From Acinetobacter pittii (GTDB taxonomy: Bacteria > Pseudomonadota > Gammaproteobacteria > Pseudomonadales > Moraxellaceae): DNA of 64,000 nt. Shown in pieces: positions 44,984-51,112 of the stretch. Position numbers and translations under genes: made by a program. The stretch lies in assembly GCF_034067285.1 (NCBI RefSeq), contig NZ_CP139286.1, positions 2,790,001-2,854,000 on the forward strand, in the 5' to 3' direction. Below the pieces are notes generated by a model. It searched no databases. It worked only from the letters and a program-made list of their open reading frames with translations, and had not been told where the DNA came from. How positions within the stretch are numbered: the first letter of the stretch is position 1; the number at the start of each line of letters is the position of its first letter.

Positions 44984-46174
44984 TTATGCAGTTACTTTCG
45001 CAACAACACCAGCACCTACAGTACGACCACCTTCACGGATCGCAAAACGTAGACCTGGGTCCATTGCGATTGGGTGGATTAATTCTACTGACATTTCAAC
45101 GTTGTCGCCTGGCATAACCATTTCAACGCCGTCTTGTAATTGGATTGCACCAGTTACGTCAGTTGTACGGAAGTAGAACTGTGGACGGTAACCATTTAAG
45201 AATGGAGTGTGACGACCACCTTCTTCTTTAGAAAGTACGTATACTTCTGCGTCGAATTTAGTGTGCGGCTTGATTGTACCTGGTTTAGCAAGTACTTGAC
45301 CACGTTGTACGTCTTCACGCTTAGTACCACGAAGTAAGATACCACAGTTCTCACCTGCACGGCCTTCGTCAAGAAGTTTACGGAACATTTCTACGCCAGT
45401 TACAGTTGTTTTAACTGTATCTTTAATACCAACGATCTCTACTTCTTCACCAACTTTAACGATACCAGCTTCTACACGGCCTGTTACTACAGTACCACGA
45501 CCAGAAATTGAGAATACGTCTTCGATTGGCATTAAGAATGCTTTGTCGATAGCACGTTCTGGTTCTGGGATGTAAGAGTCAAGCGCTTCAACAAGAGCAA
45601 GAACTGAAGGCTCGCCATATTGACCAGCATCACCTTCCAACGCTTTAAGCGCAGAACCACGGATAACTGGAGTGTCATCACCTGGGAAGTCATAAGTAGA
45701 AAGAAGTTCACGAACTTCCATTTCTACTAATTCAAGTAATTCTTCATCATCAACAAGGTCACACTTGTTCAAGAATACGATGATGTAAGGTACACCAACC
45801 TGACGAGAAAGAAGGATGTGTTCACGAGTTTGTGGCATTGGACCGTCAGTCGCAGCACACACAAGGATCGCGCCGTCCATCTGAGCAGCACCAGTAATCA
45901 TGTTTTTAACGTAATCGGCGTGGCCCGGGCAGTCAACGTGCGCGTAGTGACGAATTGGTGAATCGTATTCTACGTGTGAAGTATTAATTGTAATACCACG
46001 TGCTTTTTCTTCAGGTGCTGAGTCGATTTGTGAGTAATCTTTCGCTTCACCGCCGTAAGTTTTTGCACAAATAGTTGCAATCGCAGCAGTTAAAGTTGTT
46101 TTACCATGGTCAACGTGACCGATTGTGCCCACGTTTACGTGTGGCTTATTACGTTCAAACTTGGCTTTAGCCAT
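44984..46174 (-). CDS. tuf: elongation factor Tu
   Basis: GTPase that delivers aminoacyl-tRNA to the ribosome. 396 residues. G-domain motifs are [11 protein letters not shown] (G1), [12 protein letters not shown] (G2), [13 protein letters not shown] (G3), [12 protein letters not shown] (G4) and GSALKALEG (G5). Domains 2 and 3 are full length with the C-terminus [16 protein letters not shown]. Last gene of the str operon, 95 bases behind fusA. A second tuf gene is common in the genus but is not in this window. Confidence 0.98.
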
Positions 46175-46269
46175 GATGATCTTCCTTTATAAACTACTCA
46201 TAGAGGGTCACCCCATGAGCACTTGGTTTTTAACTAAGAAATTAGTTTGGGCTTATAGTAATCGAAAGA

Positions 46270-48408
46270 TTACTCGTCGTCACCTTTTTTACCGCCAGAT
46301 TGGAATTTAGCGATAATGCCTTCAGCCACGTTACGTGGAGTTTCAGCGTATTTAGCAAATTCCATAGAGTAAGTCGCACGACCTTGAGACATAGAACGCA
46401 TTTGAGTCGCGTAACCAAACATCTCAGCAAGAGGAACTTCAGCTTTAATTGCTTTTGTTCCACCAGGAAGATCGTCCATACCTTGAACCATACCACGACG
46501 ACGGTTTAAGTCACCCATGATATCGCCCATGTAGTCTTCTGGAGTTTCTACTTCAACTTTCATGATAGGTTCAAGAAGGATAGGATCCGCTTTCATGAAA
46601 CCATCACGGAAGGCATAAGAACCTGCCATTTTGAACGATAATTCGTCAGAGTCGACGTCATGGTAAGAACCATCGAATAATGTCGCTTTAATACCAACAA
46701 CAGGGTAACCAGCCAATACACCATTCTTCATACGCTCTTGAATACCTTTGTCAACCGCGCCAAAGAATTCTTTAGGTACTACACCACCAACAACTTCTTC
46801 AACGAATTGGTATTCTTTACCAGCTTCTTCAACATCAAGCGGCTCAAGACGTACATATACGTGACCAAACTTACCTTTACCACCAGTTTGACGTACGAAT
46901 TTACCTTCTTGTTCAACAGACTTTTTGATCGTTTCACGGTAAGCAACCATTGGTTTACCAATGTTAGCTTCAACACCGAATTCACGCTTCATACGGTCAA
47001 CAATGATGTCAAGGTGAAGCTCACCCATACCAGCAATAATTGTTTGACCAGATTCTTCGTCTGTACGTACGCGGAACGATGGATCTTCTTTAGCCAAACG
47101 ACCTAAAGCGATAGACATTTTTTCTTGGTCTGCTTTAGTTTTTGGTTCAACAGCCAATGAAATTACTGGCTCTGGGAATTCCATACGCTCAAGAGTAATG
47201 ATGTTTTTCTCATCACATAATGTATCACCAGTTGTAACGTCTTTAAGACCTACACACGCTGCGATATCACCTGCACGGATTTCATCAAGATCTTGACGTT
47301 CGTTCGCATGCATTTGCACGATACGACCGATACGTTCACGCTTAGCTTTAACTGGGTTATAAACCGGATCACCTTGTTTAAGAACACCAGAGTAAACACG
47401 TACGAATGTTAAGTTACCTACGAATTTGTCGTTCATGATTTTGAACGCAAGCGCAGAGAACGGAGCTTCGTCAGATGCTTCACGAGACGCTTTAGTTTCG
47501 TCTTTGTCGTCAAGGATACCTTCGATCGCTTTAACTTCTGTAGGTGATGGTAAGAATTCAATTACAGCATCCAACATACGTTGAACACCTTTGTTCTTGA
47601 ATGCAGAACCACAAAGCATTACTTGAATTTCAGAAGCTAATGTACGAGCACGTAGACCTGCAATGATCTCTTCTTTAGAAAGATCACCTTCTTCAAGGTA
47701 CTTGTCCATTAATTCTTCAGAAGCTTCAGCCGCAGCTTCAACCATTTTTGTACGCCATTCTTGAGCAGTATCAACTAGGTCAGCTGGGATATCAGCATAT
47801 TCAAACTTCATACCTTGAGATGCTTCATCCCAGATAATCGCTTTCATTTCGATAAGGTCAACAACACCCTGGAATGTATCTTCAGCACCAATTGGCACAA
47901 CGATAGGTACAGGATTACCACCTAAACGAGTTTTAACTTGCTCAACAGCACGGAAGAAGTTTGCACCAGTACGGTCCATCTTGTTCACGAATGCTAAACG
48001 AGGCACTTTATATTTGTTCGCTTGACGCCATACAGTTTCAGACTGAGGTTGTACACCACCTACAGCACAGTAAACCATGCACGCACCGTCAAGAACACGC
48101 ATAGAACGTTCAACTTCAATTGTGAAGTCTACGTGTCCCGGGGTGTCAATTACGTTGATACGGTGTTGTTCGAATTGGTTACCCATACCAGACCAGAAAC
48201 AAGTTGTAGCAGCAGAGGTAATTGTAATACCACGCTCTTGCTCTTGTTCCATCCAGTCCATTGTTGCTGCACCGTCGTGTACTTCACCAATTTTGTGAGA
48301 TACACCTGTGTAGAACAAAATACGTTCAGTTGTAGTTGTTTTACCTGCGTCAATGTGCGCAGAAATACCGATGTTACGGTAACGAGTAATTGGGGTTTGG
48401 CGAGCCAT
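46270..48408 (-). CDS. fusA: elongation factor G
   Basis: Translocation GTPase. The start at 48408 gives 712 residues beginning [20 protein letters not shown]; fifteen more in-frame residues upstream are not part of the family. G1 [16 protein letters not shown]2 [15 protein letters not shown]3 [11 protein letters not shown] and G4 [12 protein letters not shown] are present, with full domains II-V. Before it lies a 177-base spacer from rpsG, much longer than usual for this operon, holding a 20-codon frame and complementary repeats that may control EF-G synthesis. The immediate ribosome binding site is weak (AGGA at 12 bases). Confidence 0.97.
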
Positions 48409-48437
48409 GATGTCTACATTCCTAAATGTTATATTTA

Positions 48438-48578
48438 AAACAGGACGCACCAATTAAATTGATGCGCGCGAATATCCAAACAGGCAACTTAAATACCTGC
48501 AAAGCCCCCACTTTGATAAAGAGCAATGTTGAATCGAGCTGCTGTACGCATGAATATTCTCCTGAATAAGGCCTGTTT
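48438..48578 (-). promoter_or_regulatory. candidate attenuation or translational leader of fusA
   Basis: In the transcript, AAACAGG (48578-48572) just upstream of a small reading frame is complementary to two later copies of CCTGTTT, at 48484-48478 and 48444-48438. Only one can pair at a time. The second copy extends to TCCTG, which can also pair with the CAGGA of the small frame's ribosome binding site. A 9-bp hairpin (48446-48466, CGCATCAAT TTA ATTGGTGCG, one G-U) lies between them. The layout looks like a switch coupled to translation. It has not been tested and I know of no named family. Confidence 0.4.
48489..48551 (-). CDS. putative 20-residue leader peptide between rpsG and fusA
   Basis: The frame ATG CGT ACA GCA GCT ... 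GGT ATT TAA encodes MRTAARFNIALYQSGGFAGI. Its ribosome binding site AGGAG sits seven bases before the ATG and is better than that of fusA. It starts 34 bases after the rpsG stop and ends 80 bases before fusA. Complementary repeats lie on both sides. It may be a leader peptide whose translation controls fusA, or simply a ribosome-loading site. No homologue is known to me. Short length means chance cannot be excluded. Confidence 0.5.
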   Translation of the reverse strand: MRTAARFNIALYQSGGFAGI

Positions 48579-48585
48579 TATCCGC

Positions 48586-49056
48586 TTAGAAACGGTAGTG
48601 AGAGAAGGCTTTGTTAGCTTCAGCCATACGGTGCACATCTTCACGTTTTTTGATTGCTGCACCTTTACCTTCAGCTGCATCAAGCAACTCACCAGCAAGA
48701 CGTAAAGCCATCGTTTTTTCAGAACGCTTAGCAGCAGCATCTACTAACCAACGCATAGCTAAGGCAGTACGACGGGATGGGCGTACTTCCATAGGTACTT
48801 GATAAGTAGCACCACCAACACGGCGTGCTTTTACTTCAACCATAGGACGAACTTTTTCAAGAGTAGTCTCGAAAAATTCAACTGGGTCTACTTTGTTTTT
48901 TTCTTGAACGCGTTCTAAAGCACCGTAAACGATACTTTCTGCAATCGATTTTTTACCATCTTGCATTACGTGGTTCATGAATTTAGCGATTGTTTGGCTG
49001 CTAAATTTTGGATCTGGAAGGATCTCACGAGCAGCGACTACGCGACGTCTTGGCAT
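48586..49056 (-). CDS. rpsG: 30S ribosomal protein S7
   Basis: Primary 16S rRNA-binding protein of the small-subunit head. 156 residues starting [18 protein letters not shown] and ending FSHYRF, full length. [20 protein letters not shown] and [23 protein letters not shown] (read in two parts) are family blocks. In E. coli S7 represses its own operon by binding the rpsL-rpsG spacer; the spacer here also has hairpins. Second gene of the str operon. Confidence 0.98.
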
Positions 49057-49076
49057 TTTAATACACCTAATAATAT

Positions 49077-49144
49077 GACACTTCAGGATGATCCAGCAGT
49101 TTGTACAAGTGTCATGTACACGACGCTGGCCTTACTATACGTCG
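49077..49144 (-). promoter_or_regulatory. hairpins in the rpsL-rpsG spacer, possible S7 feedback site
   Basis: The 160-base spacer contains a 7-bp stem GACACTT / AAGTGTC (49077-49083 with 49107-49113) close to the rpsG ribosome binding site. A second, weaker stem CGACG / CGTCG (49121-49125 with 49140-49144) lies further upstream. In E. coli S7 binds a structured rpsL-rpsG spacer and represses translation. Analogy is by position only; the sequence of the site is not shown to match. Confidence 0.35.
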
Positions 49145-49216
49145 CTTGAATTACAAATCTATGAAGAATTCAAACAAGCGAAACGCTAAAGGGCTTATTC
49201 GACTAGTTTCCTAGAA

Positions 49217-49591
49217 TTACTTCTTAGGACGCTTAGTACCGTATTTAGAACGTGATTGATTACGATCTTTAACACCAGCACAGTCTAATGAGCCACGAAC
49301 GGTATGGTAACGTACACCCGGTAAGTCTTTAACACGACCACCACGGATAAGAACAACACTGTGCTCTTGTAAGTTATGGCCTTCACCACCGATGTAGCTA
49401 GATACTTCAAAACCTGAAGTTAAGCGAACACGGCAAACCTTACGCATAGCTGAGTTAGGTTTTTTAGGTGTAGTTGTATAAACACGTGTACAAACACCAC
49501 GACGTTGTGGACAAGCCTTCAACGCAGGAACTTTGGATTTTTCAACCAAAGTCGTACGACCCTTACGGATCAACTGATTCGTTGTTGCCAT
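49217..49591 (-). CDS. rpsL: 30S ribosomal protein S12
   Basis: Decoding-centre protein of the small subunit. 124 residues. The streptomycin-relevant loop reads [14 protein letters not shown], with both lysines (43 and 44 counting Met), and the second loop [11 protein letters not shown] keeps its lysine, so no classical streptomycin-resistance change is present. First gene of the str operon, with a strong promoter 63 bases upstream. Confidence 0.98.
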
Positions 49592-49653
49592 ATGGCAATT
49601 CTCCCGTTATTAAAAAACCTTAAAAAGAAAATACCTCTTTTTAAGGGCACATA

Positions 49654-49682
49654 ATTGTAAGCCAAGATGCAAAAATGGTCAA
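49654..49682 (-). promoter_or_regulatory. str operon promoter
   Basis: On the minus strand TTGACC and TACAAT are separated by exactly 17 bases. This is a near-consensus sigma-70 promoter and gives a leader of about 55 bases before rpsL. Confidence 0.8.
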
Positions 49683-49792
49683 CACGGCAATACATTACCA
49701 AATGTTGACCATATCAATGTTTGACAGGACGATTTACAAATTTAAATGGAGGTTAGTTTCACTTTTTAAACCTTCTCTTTGTAAGGGTATTG

Positions 49793-51112
49793 TTAAGAGT
49801 ATTTCTTATCTTCCAATATCTCGTCATCATCTTCAGGAGTTAAAGCTGGCTTTTGCTCAGTATGCTCATGCTCTGCTACATGCTTGTCGGCAAGTTTTTC
49901 GAGACCCTGATGAACATTTTCCTGAATTTTTTCTTCACTCTTTGTGCCTTCGGTAGGCTTTAACACAATAGAAACTTTTGAAATCACATCATGATTTTCT
50001 ACTTTATGATGATGAGCAGCATGAATATTGCCATCCTCACCTACATTTAAAAGTCTTGGGCTAGCTTTTTGGATGAGTGTAACCGCAGCATAATAAGCCT
50101 GTAACGGAGATAAATGCTCACTTGGGTGTTCATTTAAATAATGTCTTGCAGCTCCGAAAATTGCTTGAGCTTTATGACCTACATCCTCTTGTAATTTCCA
50201 GCTATACACTGCGCTTAAAACAGCTCCGGCAACTGGTGTAAATTTACTAAAAGCAGACAGTTTAGGAATACGGTTTAACCAATCCCATTTAAACTCCCCA
50301 TCTTCATTTACCAGCCAGTTTTTTAAAGTGTCTATATCTGTGGTTGAACCCAACACTTGCTGAAATTGATGAATATCTTGAGTTTCCAACATGTTTCGTA
50401 AGGTTTTCAAAGCCAACAAAAGAGTTTGCTTTTCAGCGATGAGACTAATATCAACTTCTTTAAAAATAAACTCTACAACATCTTGATCAGTAGCTTCTAA
50501 AAGATCAAACCCATGTGATCTTCCTGTTTGATAAATAGTTCTTAAAACCAAAACTAATGAAACTGGAATATCTACAGCTGCACCAACAACACCAGAGATA
50601 CCTGTAATAGCACCTTGTACAGTCGCAATAAGCTTGTTTTGTTCAATAAGTGCCTGACTTAAACGTTGAGAACGGCTGGTATCTTTAGTTAATTCAAATA
50701 AATCTTTGGCTCCCGCTTCTTCTAGGATTTTTTCAGTTAAGGTACTTTTTGAACTAAAGTCATTTAGCCAATCAAATAAATAGCCTGAGATTTTTTCATC
50801 CCAATCCGGTGAAAGAAAAGTAGCAACGCCATTTACTTTTTTAAAATGTCGGCCAAACACCTGACGTGTGACTTTTGGTAAATGTTCTCTTAGCATTTGT
50901 TGAGGACTTTCATATTGCTCAACTTCAAATGGGCTTTTTGTTCTCGATCTACCTTCAACAGTTTTTCCAGTTGGGATGGGTTCAATTACCTTACTGACGT
51001 CACCTGATTGGTTTTGTTGCAAGATACTCAATCCTGTAGAACTGAGCTTTTTAGCCACTCCGAAGACCTGAGAAAACAAATTGTCAGATTGATTATTATT
51101 AAATTTTGTCAT
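49793..51112 (-). CDS. EcsC-family protein
   Basis: 439 residues. The central part (about 130-330) matches the EcsC domain: IATVQGAITGISGVVGAAVDIPVSLVLVLRTIY and SHGFDL are the recognisable stretch, read in two parts, with helix-forming GAAVDIP. After residue 350 the tail is low-complexity: His-rich (HAAHHHKVENHD) then Glu/Lys/His and acidic (PEDDDEILEDKK). EcsC proteins occur with transporters or alone, and their role is unclear. The ATG at 51112 follows GAGGT at six bases; a TTG one codon earlier is in frame. Unlinked to the str operon, sharing only the strand. Confidence 0.75.
   Translation of the reverse strand: MTKFNNNQSDNLFSQVFGVAKKLSSTGLSILQQNQSGDVSKVIEPIPTGKTVEGRSRTKSPFEVEQYESPQQMLREHLPKVTRQVFGRHFKKVNGVATFLSPDWDEKISGYLFDWLNDFSSKSTLTEKILEEAGAKDLFELTKDTSRSQRLSQALIEQNKLIATVQGAITGISGVVGAAVDIPVSLVLVLRTIYQTGRSHGFDLLEATDQDVVEFIFKEVDISLIAEKQTLLLALKTLRNMLETQDIHQFQQVLGSTTDIDTLKNWLVNEDGEFKWDWLNRIPKLSAFSKFTPVAGAVLSAVYSWKLQEDVGHKAQAIFGAARHYLNEHPSEHLSPLQAYYAAVTLIQKASPRLLNVGEDGNIHAAHHHKVENHDVISKVSIVLKPTEGTKSEEKIQENVHQGLEKLADKHVAEHEHTEQKPALTPEDDDEILEDKKYS

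Follow-up and report, generated by a model that had tools for sequence, protein, structure and literature searches.

A conserved short reading frame in the structured rpsG-fusA spacer of Acinetobacter, a candidate leader of the EF-G gene

In Escherichia coli, translation of fus is coupled to that of rpsG and falls under the control of ribosomal protein S7 (PMC10931766). This autoregulation concerns the same operon, str, as the one described here, and the portion of that article available to us mentions no leader peptide (PMC10931766). The E. coli S7 site lies in the rpsL-rpsG gap, whereas the element described here lies in the rpsG-fusA gap. A candidate element in the rpsG-fusA gap, the Streptococcus rpsL-leader, was reported by Naville and Gautheret in 2010 (PMC2965389). 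Compared by description, it differs from the present element in having a predicted intrinsic terminator and in belonging to another phylum, and the accessible part of the report mentions no leader peptide (PMC2965389). The Pelagibacter rpsL motif of Meyer et al. (2009) is a three-stem junction that is occasionally found before rpsG or fusA (PMC2704228). By its description it resembles the spacer studied here as a junction-type fold that can precede fusA, but it is reported only from Pelagibacter and marine metagenomes, with no leader peptide mentioned in the available part of that source (PMC2704228). Neither fusA nor rpsG occurs in the main text, as available to us, of a transcription-start map of A. 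baumannii (PMC5094136). Among the literature matches listed, in which subscription journals are sparsely covered, titles and abstract openings describe no fusA leader peptide.

Arrest-type leader peptides include TnaC and SecM. Like the upstream open reading frame (uORF) considered here, they are short upstream frames whose residues stay conserved as far as an abrupt C-terminal limit; in TnaC a stop codon stands at this end, as it does in the uORF. The present locus differs from this type in that the downstream gene encodes EF-G, the leader lies inside an operon rather than at its 5' end, and the stalling is putative. In the autoregulated frameshift of prfB, a translation factor senses its own activity via a short upstream frame, and the boldest reading of our locus is alike in this respect. 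Unlike in the prfB case, no reading frame is conserved between the uORF and fusA: the length of the spacer, and hence the relative frame, varies between species, and a conserved uORF-fusA frameshift fusion was ruled out for this reason. EF-G is essential. At the present locus, sequence comparison reveals a conserved peptide, its C-terminus resembling that of arrest peptides, encoded immediately upstream of fusA; the incomplete gene table of one A. baumannii record does not list it.

We analysed a 64,000-nucleotide stretch of Acinetobacter pittii DNA (contig NZ_CP139286.1, positions 2,790,001 to 2,854,000), referred to below as the window. The gene order on its minus strand is rpsL, rpsG, the spacer, fusA and tuf (Table 1), rpsL and tuf being recognized by their sequences. 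The rpsG-fusA stretch of the window is 91.7-92.2% identical to six A. baumannii records, its closest named relatives within a plasmid collection. Each of the 37 genomes searched contained a single EF-G domain IV match, and therefore the leader apparently stands before the only EF-G gene. An initial annotation of the window had described a 177-base spacer, a 20-codon frame within it, an AGGAG seven bases before the ATG of that frame and a 9-bp hairpin, and each of these was found at the positions given; fusA itself has AGGA at 48423-48420, 11 nucleotides before its ATG. The spacer had also been called much longer than expected. This holds against the 34 of 80 loci from other genomes in which the spacer is 18-30 nucleotides long, but the full range is 13-209 nucleotides, with at least 100 in 13 loci. 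When positions 46000-51000 were searched against Rfam 15 to E 5, no family reached its gathering score, and the one match, below that score, lay within fusA.

Table 1. Features of the rpsG-fusA region, numbered as in the window and listed in the direction of transcription
Feature	Position	Strand	Remarks
rpsG (S7)	48586..49056	minus	
rpsG-fusA spacer	48409..48585	minus	177 nt; rpsG stop to fusA ATG at 48408
P0 5' strand, end of rpsG, GUUUCUAA	48586..48593	minus	predicted pairing with fusA ribosome binding site; tentative
P1 5' strand UAAAACAG	48573..48580	minus	100% of cells paired (8 pairs, 68 sequences)
Ph, 3-bp mini-hairpin over uORF ribosome binding site (48570-48568 with 48563-48561)	48561..48570	minus	97.5% of cells paired, no double change; weak
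AGGAG, uORF ribosome binding site	48559..48563	minus	7 nt before uORF ATG; five columns invariant in 68-spacer alignment
P2 5' strand GAAUAUUC, between uORF ribosome binding site and ATG	48552..48559	minus	pairing in 95.6% of cells; double changes in three pairs
uORF, 20 codons plus TAA, MRTAARFNIALYQSGGFAGI and stop	48489..48551	minus	mostly synonymous change; stop swaps; 78 of 175 Acinetobacter genomes
Palt 5' strand, uORF 3' end including stop codon	48487..48500	minus	pairs with 48481-48468
CCTGTTT copy 1	48478..48484	minus	not conserved, 4 of 68 distinct spacers
Palt 3' strand	48468..48481	minus	overlaps P2 3' strand
P2 3' strand GGAUAUUC, shortly 3' of uORF stop	48470..48477	minus	
P3 hairpin CGCAUCAAU...AUUGGUGCG, 9 bp	48446..48466	minus	pairing in 99.3% of cells; double changes in four pairs
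P1 3' strand CUGUUUUA	48436..48443	minus	overlaps CCTGTTT copy 2; CCTGTTTT in 68 of 68
P0 3' strand UUAGGAAU, contains the fusA AGGA	48418..48425	minus	tentative
fusA (EF-G)	46270..48408	minus	

Coding of the uORF was examined on a tree built for 64 of the 68 distinct carrier spacers, those from Acinetobacter; the four from genus g10, with too short a flank, were excluded from the substitution count, and two spacers (L235 and L237) were excluded from the codon table. Codons 2-20 accumulated 141 reconstructed substitutions, only 37 of them nonsynonymous, as against 97.2 (sd 5.3) expected if the changes were placed at random, and none of 5000 simulations reached 37 or fewer. The other two frames had 115 and 112 nonsynonymous changes, and they gained or lost stop codons 6 and 12 times, compared with no such event in the uORF frame. 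The uORF stop codon itself was exchanged from TAA to TAG twice and from TAA to TGA once. A rough omega is about 0.16, and the synonymous change that the initial annotation looked for in the frame indeed predominates. By these measures the coding signal exceeds chance and the small frame is a real, coding gene, under coding selection, on the same strand as rpsG and fusA and in operon position.

Amino acid changes cluster at positions 3, 4, 11, 13 and 16. Among 16 aligned peptides R6, F7, N8, A10, S14, G15, A18, G19 and I20 are invariant; one Acinetobacter spacer outside this set (L123) has G in place of R6. The last uORF codon is ATT in all 68 carriers, whereas codon 9 is ATT, ATC or replaced. 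The substitution pattern indicates that the peptide product of the uORF is conserved, most strongly at its C-terminus, and that change in the frame is largely synonymous.

A search of 175 Acinetobacter genomes with the spacer DNA gave at least 78 full-length matches, and the remaining matches listed cover only its fusA-side part. A 20-position profile of the peptide matched 78 of the 175 genomes (E <= 5.6e-12) at the same locus. Strong matches to the profile occurred once per genome, in the rpsG-fusA spacer; a partial match in a further genome (G019; E 6.7e-4, positions 1-11) was not counted, its contig being different from that of rpsG. The A. baumannii record NZ_CP043459.1 carries the frame in a spacer that translates to MHTVARFNIALYQSGGFAGI, and its incomplete gene table has only rpsG and fusA annotated at the spacer. 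Extending the search to 199 genomes of the family placed the uORF before fusA in three genera besides Acinetobacter: in all four genomes of g10, in three of the four of g12 (rpsG was not found in the fourth) and in the one genome of g16. The g16 copy, MRAANQYQVALYAAGYFAGI followed by a stop codon, lies 186 nucleotides before fusA, has an E value of 0.025 and differs at several positions that are invariant in the 16 aligned peptides; it was picked out by its position downstream of rpsG on the same strand. No convincing copy outside the family was found among 390 genomes of the order, at least 18 of which belong to the family itself, or among 274 genomes of the class, where the one match (E 0.006 per genome) could arise by chance; copies that have diverged to the extent of the g16 one may have escaped the profile.

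No full-length match to the uORF peptide or spacer was obtained in 97 of the 175 Acinetobacter genomes, and the uORF-less spacers of the genus are 100-152 nucleotides long (two loci, L229 and L379, gave no spacer, as fusA was not found). Loss of the frame in relatives, which the initial annotation had named as evidence against a leader, is seen in these genomes as the lack of a significant full-length match, but no frameshift or nonsense change occurred among the carriers compared. In a tree of the fusA and rpsG proteins (57 sequences) carriers and non-carriers are intermixed within Acinetobacter, with carriers also in g10/g12 and g16. From this distribution we infer that the uORF is an old element that was lost repeatedly, although gene exchange is also possible. 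One genome without the uORF (G041, L340) has rpsG and fusA proteins that group with a carrier's (98% support) and the window's (90%), which suggests recombination of the str operon or recent loss of the uORF.

The three g12 peptides are longer and end in FAGIQRA, FAGIQHA and FAGIQKLLF. Conservation stops sharply at FAGI, which is followed by a stop codon or by Gln and unrelated residues; because the g12 peptides run on into the diverging RA, HA and KLLF, the conserved part ends at FAGI(Q) wherever the stop codon lies. An end as sharp as this would be the signature of an arrest-type leader peptide, and the FAGI end with its unvarying ATT would be expected of a peptide that acts once its last codon is in the ribosome. 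The purifying selection might instead reflect a microprotein that acts in trans and is made from the str operon by happenstance. We consider this unlikely, since strong matches are found once per genome and at the rpsG-fusA spacer, and since conservation halts at I20 even where, as in g12, the peptide extends further. It is similarly improbable that translation of the uORF merely relays ribosomes across a long spacer, guarding it against Rho or mRNA decay, with the peptide sequence immaterial: the good ribosome binding site and the location between two genes of the translation machinery would fit such a role, but the amino acid sequence is conserved (see omega above), and Acinetobacter spacers of the lengths given above manage without a uORF.

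The RNA fold was examined in an alignment of the 68 distinct carrier spacers (64 from Acinetobacter and 4 from g10), and one further alignment took in 40 of them. Taken together, helices P1, Ph, P2 and P3 are paired in 98.3% of 1904 cells, compared with 95.2% in shuffled alignments and 34-44% when the helices were slid along the sequence, and none of 500 shuffles scored as high. Eight pairs show changes on both sides, whereas shuffles gave 3.1, again with none of 500 as high; further pair types (20, against 17.5 in shuffles) were matched by 31 of 500. Both strands of P2 lie outside the coding frames. The double change in P1 is confined to one pair, U-A to C-G, in g10. These alignment counts are inflated by shared descent. 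On the 64-tip tree we counted one double change in the main P2 pair, two in the innermost P2 pair (with a third via mispaired steps) and one in the P3 pair examined, a count that covers neither two P3 pairs nor two pairs that differ only in g10, outside the tree. Because independent double changes on the tree are few, we regard the structure as well supported rather than proven. With that grading, the aligned spacers point to a conserved fold of P1, P2 and P3 with compensatory changes. Folded by itself, the window sequence from 48389 to 48605 surpassed its shuffles by a small margin (z -1.89), with 7 of 200 doing as well, and it is the cross-species comparison, not the single-sequence fold, that supports the structure. 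By eye, we also noticed that AUGCG at the uORF start and CGCAU in an arm of P3 are a candidate pairing.

The initial annotation envisaged a different arrangement, in which AAACAGG (48578-48572) pairs with either of two CCTGTTT copies. All three sequences are present in the window, the second copy at 48444-48438 with CCTGTTTT found in every one of the 68 distinct spacers. Pairing with copy 1 is not conserved, and predicted folds place the window's copy 1 instead in a local hairpin that encloses the stop codon of the uORF. Because so few spacers contain copy 1 (Table 1), the mutually exclusive pairing was rejected as a shared mechanism. The suggestion of transcription attenuation, as in amino acid operons with P3 as the terminator, fares no better. 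P3 is a conserved hairpin with a U-containing stretch after it, as such a mechanism would have; the stretch, TCCTGTTTTA, is interrupted and contains no clean U-run, and its interruption is explained by its service as a P1 strand. Terminator-like sites numbered 2, compared with a mean of 2.0 (sd 1.7) in shuffles, which speaks against an intrinsic terminator before fusA. Runs of identical regulatory codons were absent from the carrier peptides compared. Together with the unconserved copy 1, these findings make a transcription attenuator very improbable. What stands of the leader proposed in the initial annotation is the conserved peptide with its mostly synonymous change and conserved C-terminus and the conserved RNA structure before fusA; what does not is the repeat switch and attenuation.

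The reading that we favor, at roughly even odds (a probability of about 0.5), is that a translated, peptide-dependent cis leader within a structured intercistronic RNA tunes translation of fusA. The nascent motif ALxxxGxFAGI would pause the ribosome at or next to the last codon, which is followed by a stop codon or, in one genus, by a Gln codon. The place of the ribosome on the uORF would then pick either P2, with the uORF closed and the rpsG-fusA junction compact, or an alternative helix, Palt, with P1 weakened. This choice of fold would set how well ribosomes coming from rpsG reach the fusA start, and EF-G synthesis would thereby follow translation capacity, possibly EF-G-dependent translocation or recycling. 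Arrest and regulation of fusA are inferences from these patterns, and the effect might go in either direction; the leader probably helps to set the amount of EF-G that is made.

Palt and P2 exclude each other because their 3' strands overlap. Palt is paired in 88.7% of cells, compared with 21-54% for slid versions, and across the 68 carrier spacers it displays no covariation beyond shuffles; it may be a by-product of the constraints of coding and of P2. We modelled ribosomes on the 68 spacers and took ensemble means of the expected pairs. P2 and Palt had 5.5 and 4.0 pairs with no ribosome, 0 and 10.5 with a ribosome at the uORF start, 4.4 and 0 with one at the stop, and 0 and 0 with the whole uORF covered, where the zeros follow from the imposed ribosome footprints. 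In the same models P1 had 4.9, 2.7, 5.2 and 2.5 expected pairs, respectively, and P0, a helix between the end of rpsG and the fusA ribosome binding site, had 4.0, 3.6, 4.6 and 6.9. It is possible, in these models, that the strand following the uORF stop pairs with the uORF start zone (P2) or with the uORF 3' end (Palt) depending on the position of the ribosome.

P0 is predicted in many species, the window's included, but not in all, and the prediction weakens where rpsG ends in CGC-TTC-TAA. Predicted access to the fusA ribosome binding site in 70 spacers was 0.12 in the free RNA, 0.12 with a ribosome at the uORF start and 0.11 with one at the uORF stop, and it rose to 0.26 when everything from the end of rpsG through the uORF start was blocked. 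Because access to the fusA site barely moves with the uORF ribosome, the output step from uORF to fusA is the weakest part of the cis-leader reading. In the models, a ribosome leaving rpsG matters more to this access than one on the uORF.

The strongest alternative to a peptide-dependent cis leader starts from the RNA: P1, P2 and P3 would themselves be the regulator, binding a protein (for example, S7) or shortening the distance from the rpsG stop to the fusA start so that coupling is kept, and the uORF would be accessory. Among 37 distinct uORF-less Acinetobacter spacers, both P1 strands are retained in 27, the 5' strand is shifted (TAGGTT type) in 8, and neither strand is found in 2; in 25 further uORF-less spacers, judged by eye, the corresponding numbers are 21 and 3, with a different arrangement in 1 (L394). 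For the later batch of 26 loci, of which a recount of P1 read 12, the figures by eye are used. The 37 spacers are also predicted to form P3 and, where P2 would be, a short local hairpin, with 15 of 25 predicted pairs changed on both sides in some sequence. Because most sampled spacers keep this scaffold while so many Acinetobacter genomes lack a full-length uORF match, the peptide is dispensable or replaceable. The 18-30-nucleotide spacers of other genomes are in keeping with a distance-shortening role, as P1 would bring the two ends similarly close, and the Pelagibacter rpsL motif is another structured element that occasionally precedes fusA (PMC2704228). On the other hand, RNAalifold skipped P1 in the uORF-less set and had the region of the P1 3' strand pair otherwise, UCCUG being matched to UAGGA of the fusA ribosome binding site. 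These UCCU/AGGA pairs never vary in that set and for this reason say nothing; as for a possible anti-Shine-Dalgarno role of UCCU on the fusA AGGA in carriers, a ribosome on the uORF makes little difference to modelled access to the fusA site. A regulatory scaffold leaves unexplained both the purifying selection on the peptide and the invariant ATT before the stop codon, and we regard it as possible, though clearly less probable than a peptide-dependent cis leader.

A bolder form of the cis-leader reading, which we put forward tentatively and consider doubtful, is that the uORF gauges EF-G itself. Under the influence of the nascent peptide, the final translocation, termination or recycling step would need EF-G to an unusual degree; with EF-G in short supply, ribosomes would linger there, keeping the rpsG-fusA junction in a single fold, and translation of fusA would change. 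If this is true, cells would be measuring EF-G by means of a leader peptide, to our knowledge the first case of its kind. Whether or not it gauges EF-G, a peptide leader before fusA would give a medically important genus a further point, based on translation, at which EF-G is controlled, beyond the S7 coupling known in E. coli, and the FAGI end would offer a new natural arrest motif for study.

Several observations were made at neighboring sites. In part of the genus (L141, L142, L145-L149 and others) ATGCAAGAAATCATG or ATGCTAGAAATCATG stands before fusA, placing an in-frame upstream ATG right after AGGA; the window has ATGTAG at that position. In g9, another genus of the family, rpsG-fusA spacers of 343-356 nucleotides in five genomes (L246, L247, L254, L255 and L256) have visibly common stretches, without a uORF of the FAGI type, and are perhaps a different leader. 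The rpsL-rpsG spacer of the window (49057-49216) is also long, at 160 nucleotides, and corresponds to the gap that contains the S7 site in E. coli. Just 5' of rpsL lies a terminator-like hairpin with TTTTTT (49646-49618, minus strand), preceded by a promoter-like site (49682-49654, minus strand; 10 of 12 matches). Sites of either type are no commoner than in shuffles, but as a pair (49618-49682) these two could form an rpsL leader.
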